Source: an uncultured Microcaldota archaeon
GTDB taxonomy: Archaea; Micrarchaeota; Micrarchaeia; Norongarragalinales; CAINOH01
Length of the DNA: 56,570 nt
Assembly (NCBI GenBank): GCA_903851445.1
Contig: CAINOH010000020.1
Span: forward strand, 1 to 56,570
Reading direction: 5' to 3'
Notes under the pieces: model-generated
What the model was told of the DNA's origin: nothing
The model's database searches: none
What the model saw: the letters and a program-made list of their open reading frames with translations, nothing else
Program-made: the position numbers and the translations under genes
Shown: one piece after another, positions 22,899-26,438 of the stretch
How the letters are laid out: every line of letters begins with the position of its first letter
How positions within the stretch are numbered: the stretch's first letter is position 1

Positions 22899-22914
22899 AT
22901 ACAACATATAGTGG
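22899..22914. promoter_or_regulatory. Candidate NrdR box 1
   Basis: ATACAACATATAGTGG matches the bacterial NrdR-box consensus ACACWATATATWGTGT at 13 of 16 positions by my count. It lies upstream of a gene that begins with a full NrdR repressor domain. Confidence 0.5.
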
Positions 22915-22982
22915 TTTGTTTATACTTCCACCACAATAGGTGGGATTTAAGCCGCCTGGCAGGCCGGCAGCAGACCCCGCAA

Positions 22983-22998
22983 AAACCATATGTTGTGC
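22983..22998. promoter_or_regulatory. Candidate NrdR box 2
   Basis: AAACCATATGTTGTGC matches ACACWATATATWGTGT at 12 of 16 positions. It begins 84 bp after box 1, which is eight turns of 10.5 bp, so both would face the same side of the helix. It lies 43 nt before the start codon. Confidence 0.45.
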
Positions 22999-23041: not shown

Positions 23042-24376
23042 GTGAAATGTCCCAGTTGCAAGAGCGAAGAGACCAAGGTCATAGACAAGCGCTTCACTGA
23101 TAATATCGAGGCCAACAGGAGGCGCCGCGAGTGCCTCTCCTGCGGCGAGCGCTTCACCACTTACGAACGCATAGAGACCACGCTGAAAGTCGTCAAAAAG
23201 GACGGCCGGAAGGAGGACTTCGACGAGTCCAAAATCATGCGCGGAATCGAGAACGCCGCTGTAAAGAGGCTTTCGGAAAAGCAGATTGACACCCTGGTTG
23301 ATGACATCTCAACCGAACTTGCAAAGGAACACCCGAACGGCGAGGTGCCATCGAACGAGATTGGAAACAAGGTGCTTGAAAAGCTCAAGGCTGCTGACGA
23401 AATCACCTATTTGCGCTTTGCGGCTGTTTACAAGGGGCTCAAGAACGCCCAGGCACTGCAAAAGGAGGCGCGGAGCCTTCACGAGTACAAGGGCGGGACG
23501 GTCAAGGCGCTCGTCTCAAAAATCAAGAAGCGCGACGGTCGCGTAGTCTCCTTTGACCGCGACCGCATCGAGAACGCCATCTTCGCAGCAGCCAAGGCAG
23601 CAGGCGCAGGAGACCACGACCTTGCGGAAGAGCTTGCTGACAAGGTGATTGCAAAGCTCAACGCCGAGTACGGCGACGACAAGGTGCCGGACGTGGAAGT
23701 AATCCAGGACCTGGTCGAGAAGGTGCTCATCGAAGCAGGCCAGGCCGAGATTTCCAAAGTATACATACTTTACCGCAACCAACGCGAGAAGGAACGCGAG
23801 CGCAAGCAGATGTTCATGAACATCAACGACGTCATGGACGGGTACCTCTCGCAGAGCGACTGGCGCACCAAGGAAAACAGCAACACAGACTACTCGTTCT
23901 CAGGGCTGATGCTCCACACTGCAGGAACCGTGATTGCAAATTACGTCCTCAACGAGATGTACCCCTACGAAGTTGCCGAGGCGCACAAGAAGGGCTACTA
24001 CCACCTGCATGACCTCTCCTGCGGAGTCGTAGGATATTGCGCGGGATGGTCGCTCAAGAACCTCATTACAATGGGATTCAACGGCGTGCCAAACAAAGTC
24101 GATGCGCTTCCTGCAAAGCACCTGGACGTCCTTGTAAACCAGATGGTGAACTTCATCGGCTGCATGCAGATGGAGTTCGCAGGGGCGCAGGCGTTCTCAA
24201 GTGTTGACACCCTTCTTGCTCCTTTTGTGAAGCAGGACAAGCTTACTTACAAGCAAGTCAAGCAGGCAATGCAGATTTTGGTGTATTCCCTGAACGTGCC
24301 CTCGCGCTGGGGAAGCCAGATGCCATTCTCCAACATCACATTCGACTGGACCGTGCCCGAGGACATGGCGGGCTAG
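23042..24376 (+). CDS. nrdD: NrdR-NrdD fusion, N-terminal part, ending at an in-frame UAG
   Basis: A 444-residue reading frame starting at GTG 23042. Residues 1-147 are a complete NrdR: zinc ribbon Cys3, Cys6, Cys31, Cys34 with the RRRREC stretch, then the ATP-cone. NrdR is normally a separate repressor of ribonucleotide reductase genes. Residues about 152-245 are a second ATP-cone, beginning VSKIKKRDGRVVSF, of the kind that allosterically controls the enzyme. From about 250 the class III (anaerobic) reductase catalytic domain begins, with GYYHLHDLSCG and the FIGCMQMEFAGAQAF stretch. It stops at TAG 24374-24376 in the middle of the catalytic barrel. The same frame continues with eight more codons to ATG 24401. 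So this is either a nonsense mutation, a split enzyme or read-through. Confidence 0.9.
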   Translation: MKCPSCKSEETKVIDKRFTDNIEANRRRRECLSCGERFTTYERIETTLKVVKKDGRKEDFDESKIMRGIENAAVKRLSEKQIDTLVDDISTELAKEHPNGEVPSNEIGNKVLEKLKAADEITYLRFAAVYKGLKNAQALQKEARSLHEYKGGTVKALVSKIKKRDGRVVSFDRDRIENAIFAAAKAAGAGDHDLAEELADKVIAKLNAEYGDDKVPDVEVIQDLVEKVLIEAGQAEISKVYILYRNQREKERERKQMFMNINDVMDGYLSQSDWRTKENSNTDYSFSGLMLHTAGTVIANYVLNEMYPYEVAEAHKKGYYHLHDLSCGVVGYCAGWSLKNLITMGFNGVPNKVDALPAKHLDVLVNQMVNFIGCMQMEFAGAQAFSSVDTLLAPFVKQDKLTYKQVKQAMQILVYSLNVPSRWGSQMPFSNITFDWTVPEDMAG

Positions 24377-24400
24377 GCGGCAATAATCGGCGGCGAGCCA

Positions 24401-25474
24401 ATGGAATTCAACTACGGCGACTGCCAGGCCGAAATGGACATGATAAACAAGGCGTTCCTCGAGGTCATGATGAGCGGCGACGCGTCAGGACGCATATTCA
24501 CGTTCCCGATCCCGACATACAACCTTACCACTGACTTTGACTGGGACTCCGACAACGCAAACCTCCTGTTCGAGGCAACTGCGCGCTACGGAATGCCCTA
24601 CTTCCAGAACTACATCGGAAGCAACCTCGACCCCAAAAGCGTGCGGTCAATGTGCTGCAGGCTGAGCCTTGACCTTAACCAGCTGCGCAACAAGGGCAAC
24701 GGCATCTTCGGAGCTGGCGAGCAGACCGGAAGCGTCGGCGTGGTCACAATAAACGTCAACCGCCTTGCATACGAGTCTAGCAACAAGGACGAGTTCTTCA
24801 AGAAAATCGACCAGTACATGACCCTTGCCAAGGTCTCGCTTGAGATAAAACGCGAGGCAATCGAACGCAACCTCGCGCAGGGGCTGATGCCATACACCAA
24901 GAGGTACCTGGGCACGTTCAACAACCACTTCTCAACAATCGGGCTTTGCGGGATGAACGAGGCCTCGGTGAACCTGCTTGGAAAGAGCATCGCCGAGACC
25001 GAAGGCAAAGGCTTTGCAATGGAGACGCTCACGTTCATGCGCACCAAGCTCGTAGAGTTCCAGAACGAGACCGGACACCTCTACAACCTTGAGGCGACGC
25101 CTGCCGAGAGCGCAGGCTACAGGATGGCCAAGGCGGACAAGAAGGCGCACCCGGACATATACACTGCCGGGACAGACGTGCCCTACCTGACCAACTCTAC
25201 CCAGCTGCCGGTTGACGCTACGGACGACGTGATTGAGGCGCTTACGCACCAGAACGACATACAGCCGCTTTACAGCGGGGGGACGGTGTTCCACGTGTTC
25301 ATGGGCGAAAAGCTCAGCTCAGGAGATGCTTGCAAGGCCCTTGTGAAGAAGATTGCCTACAACACGCGGCTTCCGTACTTTTCAATCACGCCGACATTCA
25401 GCATCTGCCCGGAACACGGCTACATTGCAGGAGAGCACTTCACCTGCCCCTGCGCGGTAAAGGAGACTGCATAA
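24401..25474 (+). CDS. nrdD: NrdD catalytic domain, C-terminal part
   Basis: Continues the reductase in the same frame as the upstream part after one UAG. The family sequence resumes immediately after the stop (AAIIGGEPMEFNYG), then FTFPIPTYNLTTDFDWD, SMCCRLSLDLNQLRNKGNG with the region of the substrate-radical cysteine, and GSVGVVTINVNRLAY. It ends FSICPEHGYIAGEHFTCPC, which is the first half of the zinc-binding region. If translated separately the start is ATG 24401 (357 aa), but no good SD precedes it, and the eight conserved codons between stop and ATG would be lost. The glycyl-radical domain is absent and is encoded by the next gene. Confidence 0.88.
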   Translation: MEFNYGDCQAEMDMINKAFLEVMMSGDASGRIFTFPIPTYNLTTDFDWDSDNANLLFEATARYGMPYFQNYIGSNLDPKSVRSMCCRLSLDLNQLRNKGNGIFGAGEQTGSVGVVTINVNRLAYESSNKDEFFKKIDQYMTLAKVSLEIKREAIERNLAQGLMPYTKRYLGTFNNHFSTIGLCGMNEASVNLLGKSIAETEGKGFAMETLTFMRTKLVEFQNETGHLYNLEATPAESAGYRMAKADKKAHPDIYTAGTDVPYLTNSTQLPVDATDDVIEALTHQNDIQPLYSGGTVFHVFMGEKLSSGDACKALVKKIAYNTRLPYFSITPTFSICPEHGYIAGEHFTCPCAVKETA

Positions 25475-25494
25475 GAAAAAGGAGGATGAGAAAG

Positions 25495-25707
25495 ATGAAC
25501 GAAGACAAGACCTGCTCAAAGCGCTGCGAAGTATACTCACGCGTAGTCGGCTACTACAGGCCGGTACAGAACTGGAACAACGGAAAGCGCGAGGAATTCA
25601 AGGACCGGCTCGAGTACTCCGAGGACATCGCGCTCAAAAAGAAGTTTGCACCGGTACAAGAAGTCACAATAACCTGCGAGTGCGAAACTGCAAAAGCGAA
25701 GGCATAG
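25495..25707 (+). CDS. Detached glycyl-radical domain of anaerobic ribonucleotide reductase (70 aa)
   Basis: A 70-residue protein matching only the C-terminal end of class III reductases: CEVYSRVVGYYRPVQNWN, with the radical-bearing glycine at residue 19. It begins with its own cysteine pair (Cys7, Cys11), and a further CEC pair lies near the end. GGAGG (25481-25485) lies 9 nt before ATG 25495, so it has a genuine start. It is in a different frame from the preceding gene, with a TAA between them, so no single base change would rejoin them. It may dock into the catalytic domain as the free glycyl-radical protein YfiD/GrcA does with pyruvate formate-lyase. Confidence 0.88.
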   Translation: MNEDKTCSKRCEVYSRVVGYYRPVQNWNNGKREEFKDRLEYSEDIALKKKFAPVQEVTITCECETAKAKA

Positions 25708-25745: not shown

Positions 25746-26438
25746 ATGCAAATCGTTGGCCTGCAGAAGACCACGCTAGTGGACTACCCCGGCAAGGTCG
25801 CCTGCACTCTTTTCACTCCGGGGTGCAACTTCCGCTGTCCCTACTGCCACAACCCCGAACTAATCAAGCCAACCCACCAGTACCAGATTATTCCGGAGGA
25901 CGAGTTTCTCCAGTGGCTCTCTTCGCGCAAGGGCTGGCTTGACGGGGTTTGCGTAACAGGCGGAGAGCCCACACTGCAGAAGGACTTGCCGGAATTTGCC
26001 AGGAAAGTCAAGGACCTCGGATTTTTGTTCAAGCTTGACTCCAACGGCACGAACCCGCAAATGCTTGAGAAAATGCTTGACGCTGGACTCATCGATTTTG
26101 TAGCAATGGACATCAAGGCGCCCCTTGAGGACTACTCGAAAGCAACGAAAGTCAGCGTGGTTGAGGCGGACATAAAGAAGAGTGTCGAACTCATCCGCAC
26201 TCGCGCCCCGGATTATGAGTTCCGCACAACCGTCGGCCCCGCCTGGTACTCCGCGGACTACGCCAAGCGCATCGGCGAGTGGCTAAAGGGCTCAAAAGCA
26301 TACTACATACAGCAGTACGTTGCAGGAAACACGCTAGACCCGGAGCTGAGCCAGACCACTTTTTCGAAGGAGCAGCTGGAAGATCTTGCCAAAATACTCA
26401 AACCTTACTTTGGGAAGGTCGAAATCCGCGGAATTTGA
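25746..26438 (+). CDS. nrdG: Anaerobic ribonucleotide reductase activating protein
   Basis: A 230-residue radical-SAM enzyme that generates the glycyl radical on the reductase. The 4Fe-4S motif CNFRCPYC (CxxxCxxC) lies near residue 27, followed by a GGEPT motif for SAM binding. GGAGG lies 7 nt upstream of the ATG. It is 38 nt downstream of the detached glycyl-radical gene, its substrate, confirming that the locus acts as one class III reductase system working without oxygen. Confidence 0.93.
   Translation: MQIVGLQKTTLVDYPGKVACTLFTPGCNFRCPYCHNPELIKPTHQYQIIPEDEFLQWLSSRKGWLDGVCVTGGEPTLQKDLPEFARKVKDLGFLFKLDSNGTNPQMLEKMLDAGLIDFVAMDIKAPLEDYSKATKVSVVEADIKKSVELIRTRAPDYEFRTTVGPAWYSADYAKRIGEWLKGSKAYYIQQYVAGNTLDPELSQTTFSKEQLEDLAKILKPYFGKVEIRGI

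Follow-up and report, generated by a model that had tools for sequence, protein, structure and literature searches.

The locus described here is, as judged from its sequence, an anaerobic (class III) ribonucleotide reductase (RNR) whose large chain bears its own repressor, NrdR, at the N-terminus. It is located in the window, that is, the whole stretch of 56,570 bases that was analysed, which is contig 20 of a Micrarchaeota MAG (1.09 Mb, 81% complete; labelled G000 among its relatives). The covalent linkage of NrdR to NrdD, the central claim of the original prediction, is borne out by five other genomes of the same order that share this architecture. With regard to its function, we lean slightly towards a bifunctional enzyme-repressor, which would be inhibited by dATP through its second ATP-cone and would repress its own synthesis through its NrdR part.

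Domain organization of the interrupted large chain

The large chain opens with a frame of 444 codons (23042-24373, forward strand, as for all the genes of the locus) in which Pfam recognises Zn_ribbon_NrdR at residues 1-42, two ATP-cones and, from residue 278, NRDD. The NrdR module (23042-23470) comprises a GTG start, the zinc ribbon (residues 1-42) and ATP-cone 1, which extends to residue ~143. It matches Zn_ribbon_NrdR (PF22811, E 1.3e-16) and PF03477, and the zinc-ribbon cysteines are found at positions 3, 6, 31 and 34, exactly as had been claimed. The description of this module as a complete NrdR is equally sound, since residues 1-143 reach 140.1 bits with TIGR00244, the NCBIfam model of NrdR, whose curated cutoff is 124.65. 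E. coli NrdR structures are the top PDB sequence matches, and one of them, 9fxk_A, matches the NrdR module with an E value of 2.8e-26. However, the NrdR part is not a free-standing protein of ~150 residues: the frame runs on through a linker devoid of in-frame ATG, GTG and TTG codons (23471-23512) and a cone of the NrdD type, ATP-cone 2 (23519-23788; best PF03477 stretch at residues 160-249), into NrdD.

The 444 codons contain only the first piece of the NrdD catalytic domain, so that the single frame originally proposed was right in its succession of NrdR, two cones and NrdD but not in its extent. This first part (23873-24373) matches PF13597 along profile positions 1-170 (E 4.1e-53) of the 562 positions of the NRDD profile, and it is followed by an in-frame TAG (24374-24376). 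The coding frame of the large chain is therefore not uninterrupted in the window, and the 444-residue product cannot be equated with the whole enzyme. The catalytic domain continues in a second part that also includes the first half of a zinc knuckle (24377-25474, with TAA as stop); its coding sequence, to 25471, matches profile positions 170-525 (E 8.3e-111). The view that a single chain holds the enzyme is likewise incorrect in its details, because it overlooked both the internal TAG and the presence of the radical domain on a separate ORF. The large chain lacks a glycyl-radical motif. This motif, RVVGYYRPVQNW, which corresponds to profile positions 526-562 (E 5.8e-11), is carried by the ORF at 25495-25707, which encodes a separate 70-aa glycyl-radical subunit (MNEDKTCSKRCEVYSRVVGYYRP...) with its radical Gly codon at 25549-25551 and a Shine-Dalgarno sequence, AAGGAGG, at 25479-25485. 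The gene for the radical-SAM activase, nrdG (25746-26438; PF04055, E 8.6e-23, and PF13353), adjoins the NrdD genes, as expected for a class III RNR.

The internal TAG, which is read directly in the sequence, is unique to this genome among the relatives examined, and it occupies a variable position at which the aligned residues are E, S, M, Q or D. The 365 codons after it remain open. When the locus is compared with that of G016, the differences at codon positions 1, 2 and 3 are 0.21, 0.16 and 0.47 after the TAG and 0.17, 0.09 and 0.51 before it; by this comparison, the part after the TAG is conserved like the part before it and is under the same selection. A role of TAG as a sense codon was rejected, since TAG ends other genes of the window as well as the small radical gene. 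No match to pyrrolysyl-tRNA synthetase (PylS) was found above the cutoff, nor any CUA anticodon among the tRNAs recognised by ARAGORN (30 best tRNA loci). A recent nonsense change, or else an assembly or consensus error, is the most likely origin of the TAG, which would then not belong to the design. An in-frame TAG that interrupts a catalytic domain and is not read as sense, in a sequence that comes from a MAG assembly, could also mean that the gene is broken or mis-assembled, with the TAG marking a dying gene or the fusion being a sequencing artefact. We regard this as very improbable, because five other assemblies contain the fusion too, the frame beyond the TAG stays open with a codon-position bias resembling that of the upstream part, and no RNR other than NrdD was detected. 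At most, therefore, the TAG is an error or a recent change, and the fusion is neither; a single assembly error as its source is rejected by the recurrence.

The large chain of 810 residues was modelled with AlphaFold from 38 sequences, the TAG being read as Q, and the mean pLDDT is 84.3. Structure prediction had been suggested as a check; the model is confident for the zinc ribbon, cone 2 and the barrel, but cone 1 is poorly modelled (54-77), linker residues 132-155 are of low confidence and the arrangement of the domains is not readable. A Foldseek search with the model matched class III RNRs and E. coli NrdR. The linker, the least confident region of the model, is also poorly conserved, and in G009 and G013 it holds in-frame ATG codons. 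These features would suit a situation in which the parts act separately in the cell, an internal start or proteolysis setting free NrdD and some NrdR; since the linker of the window contains no ATG, GTG or TTG, an internal start there would be unusual, and such a separation of the parts seems quite unlikely.

DNA contacts, candidate operator and possible autoregulation

The DNA-contact residues of the NrdR module are intact. In the NrdR of S. coelicolor, DNA is contacted by D15, R17 and an RRRR stretch (PMC9110341); D15, R17 and R26-29 (RRRR) appear at identical numbers in the window protein. The cone residues K50, E56, F58, K62, F124, V127 and Y128 are retained too, and the nucleotide contacts of the NrdR cone (K50, R51, E56, K62 and Y128) are all kept save R51, which is replaced by K. 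K50 is needed for DNA binding by bacterial NrdR and has been lost from cone 1 of the fused proteins of G009 and G013, so that the regulatory role may fail in some fusions. Neither another NrdR zinc ribbon nor a class I or class II RNR large subunit was found in the window's genome, leaving NrdD as the sole RNR detected. The completeness of this genome is only 81%, and the assembly may therefore lack a gene for a free NrdR or for another RNR.

Three sites resembling NrdR boxes are located just upstream of the fused gene. They were detected with a 16-bp PWM seeded with an NrdR-box consensus and refined solely on relatives with a free (non-fused) nrdR, to avoid circularity. When all 56,570 bases were scanned, the top three sites were those at 22899, 22983 and 22931, all of them close to the start at 23042. 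Box 1 (ATACAACATATAGTGG, 22899-22914) is the best match in the entire window, with 17.3 bits versus a maximum of 15.6 bits for any site in 200 shuffled windows. Box 2 (CCACAATAGGTGGGAT, 22931-22946; 11.5 bits) lies 32 bp from box 1, and 200 shuffled windows yielded no pair of 11-bit sites 30-34 bp apart. The third, box-like site (AAACCATATGTTGTGC, 22983-22998), at 84 bp from box 1, is the second-best of the window (12.6 bits). Between boxes 1 and 2 the forward strand reads TTTATA (22919-22924), a TATA-like element for which we infer a promoter role from its sequence.

Bacterial NrdR binds boxes separated by a spacer of 14-17 bp (PMC12051234). The spacer between boxes 1 and 2 is 16 bp long, inside this range, and the two boxes form a candidate operator pair. 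Box pairs with a spacing of 32-33 bp are also present upstream of the fused genes of G009, G013, G016 and G025, and the same spacing occurs in about ten unfused relatives. In G021, the NrdR-box match upstream of the fused gene is weaker than for the other fused genes.

The paired candidate boxes, together with the intact DNA-contact residues, suggest autoregulation. According to the enzyme-repressor model, at high dATP concentrations the enzyme would be turned off by dATP bound to cone 2, and occupation of cone 1 by dATP/ATP would put the NrdR part in its DNA-binding form, which would clamp both boxes flanking the TATA element and thereby stop transcription of the operon. At low dATP, the same protein would be off the DNA and act as an enzyme, once NrdG had activated the small glycyl-radical subunit, which would be docked in the barrel. 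In this scheme we infer DNA binding, the dATP response and the docking of the small subunit from the protein families involved. NrdR forms tetramers on DNA and dodecamers when loaded with ATP (PMC9110341). In the fused protein, assemblies of this type would have to form with a barrel of ~540 residues attached, which was counted against the enzyme-repressor model, as were the poor modelling of cone 1 and the presence of a stop codon in the gene of the window.

The NrdR part could instead be only an extra allosteric domain, serving as both a second nucleotide sensor and an oligomerisation module, DNA binding being lost or irrelevant. RNRs with multiple ATP-cones are known, and both the absence of K50 from cone 1 of G009 and G013 and the degenerate second cone that follows NrdR in G025, as if the cones were interchangeable, would fit such a role. 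However, the zinc ribbon and all the DNA-contact residues have been kept, and paired boxes precede each fused gene except that of G021, with its weaker match. Retention of contact residues and paired boxes would be unexpected had DNA binding been lost, which makes a purely allosteric role unlikely.

Distribution and origin of the fusion

A survey of nrdR frames in 296 genomes of the phylum indicates that most of them have about 150-230 codons, and that large nrdR frames with NrdD are confined to the order to which the window belongs. A search for NrdR ahead of NrdD in DPANN relatives had been recommended, and it retrieved the fusion in G009, G013, G016, G021 and G025, in addition to G000. In G009 (877 aa), G013 (892 aa) and G016 (840 aa) the frame is open across NrdR, the cone and the whole catalytic domain, while those of G025 (561) and G021 (321) reach a contig end. 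When the fused frames were read out, NrdR, a second cone and NrdD were found in a single frame, the second cone being degenerate in G025. A frame of 314 codons in G029 was rejected as a fusion, since it ends with NrdR and owes its length to an open stretch upstream.

Two of these genomes have additional features. In G021 (L036 and L080), besides the fused NrdR-cone-NrdD at the contig end, there is a second NrdD without any ATP-cone, which is possibly a dATP-insensitive copy. In G025 (L035, contig C29), the NrdD that is fused to NrdR behind the degenerate second cone is divergent and is interrupted by the contig end.

In a tree of 86 catalytic domains, from which G025 was omitted, G000 and G016 group with the additional NrdD of G021, the one without a cone, and G009 and G013 are placed apart from G000 and G016. 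In G025, NrdR is joined to a third, divergent NrdD type. Because the fused proteins separate on the tree and the NrdD of G025 is of a different type, the NrdR-NrdD fusion appears to have arisen at least twice, probably three times, in this order. An alternative is that a single fused front part moved between different NrdD backs.

Separate genes, with nrdR directly upstream of nrdD, are present in many relatives, Woesearchaeota, spirochaetes and one Moraniibacteriota genome. This adjacent arrangement is likely the ancestral state, and from it the loss of a stop is all that fusion requires. The original prediction had named two separate genes in close relatives as the sign of a sequencing error: the nearest relatives lack them, although in more distant ones nrdR and nrdD are adjacent but not joined. 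In Spirochaetes, long tblastn matches were rejected as fusions, nrdR and nrdD being separate and adjacent there. Among 80 viral-contig loci no NrdR-NrdD fusion was seen, and one of them has separate adjacent genes. In a MAG labelled 'bacterium' (L093, 150-2441), the NrdR zinc ribbon alone is joined directly to a single-cone NrdD.

A more complete picture, offered tentatively and with somewhat less than even confidence, is that of an enzyme with its own product-sensing repressor, in which two cones in series serve catalysis and DNA binding and the radical glycine is provided in trans, and which originated repeatedly within one archaeal order when neighbouring nrdR and nrdD genes were fused.

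The separate radical subunit and comparison with known systems

NrdD is cut near the same place in about 30 genomes of the phylum and whole in about 13. The small radical ORF has its own Shine-Dalgarno sequence and start codon in G000 and most relatives; at one extreme the large chain and the small ORF overlap, at the other they lie about 290 nt apart, and the frame relation can be 0, 1 or 2. A programmed frameshift into the radical domain was rejected, since frame relation and gap vary and a Shine-Dalgarno sequence and ATG precede most small ORFs, which are therefore separate genes. Outside the phylum, a split radical domain is likewise frequent, with examples in Proteobacteria, spirochaetes, Acidobacteria and other groups; the spirochaete small gene has an N-terminal extension. 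Loci L138, L109, L089 and L218 are among those at which NrdD is split. On the catalytic-domain tree, the split or whole state of NrdD has changed at least 13 times. Other arrangements were also observed: in L073 (G002, contig C18) a free nrdR, a split NrdD with a cone and an intact NrdD lacking a cone are neighbours, and in L081 (G011, contig C61) a separate radical ORF accompanies an nrdD frame of 1379 codons, which appears to hold two intein-like insertions.

In the clade of the window, NrdD is divided within the zinc knuckle, with CPEHGY...CPC at the end of the large chain and CSKRCEVYSR at the start of the small one. Both chains may therefore contribute to a common zinc site. The only Pfam match of the small protein is NRDD, its NCBIfam matches are NrdD models, and it matches no GrcA/PFL glycyl-radical family.

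Related ATP-cones let NrdR and the RNR that it regulates respond to the same nucleotides, but in all the published cases found repressor and enzyme are separate proteins. Neither a description of an NrdR-NrdD fusion nor a paper describing a separate NrdD radical subunit was found in the open literature, subscription journals being largely outside this coverage. With covalent fusion and the operator boxes retained, enzyme and repressor occur in a fixed 1:1 ratio, and how allosteric control of the DNA precursor supply connects with its transcriptional control can be tested directly on a single polypeptide. In addition, NrdR boxes are thereby placed at an archaeal TATA promoter. Since the glycyl-radical subunit is separate in about 30 genomes of the phylum and in many bacteria, one may ask whether the radical domain of class III RNR can be exchanged.

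The N-terminal module resembles the NrdR of S. coelicolor and E. coli (TIGR00244) in its CxxC zinc ribbon, D15/R17/RRRR residues, ATP-cone and boxes with a 16-bp spacer. It differs from free NrdR (~150 residues) in being the N-terminus of the enzyme presumed to be its target and in its archaeal host. With the one-cone class III NrdD proteins of Prevotella copri and Streptococcus thermophilus, the locus as a whole shares the ATP-cone, the ten-stranded barrel, the Zn/glycyl-radical C-terminus and the adjacent nrdG, but these enzymes have no NrdR module in front, nor is their radical domain split off as a small protein. The two-gene NrdD of Cupriavidus necator H16 (pHG1) has a large chain ending in the zinc region, followed by a small radical protein and the activase; it is annotated by NCBI as 'ribonucleoside triphosphate reductase' plus a 66-aa 'nrdD', and unlike the window it lacks the NrdR fusion. 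NrdDG has been reported to be essential for complete denitrification in this strain (PMC2864759). One RNR function is likewise distributed over two chains in the split NrdJa/NrdJb of Pseudomonas aeruginosa, which, however, belong to a different RNR class (class II) and have no glycyl radical. Finally, YfiD/GrcA of pyruvate formate-lyase is also a small, separate radical-glycine protein that docks in a larger barrel. However, YfiD/GrcA repairs an otherwise complete PFL, whereas the large chain of the window has no radical glycine of its own and its small protein is NRDD according to Pfam.
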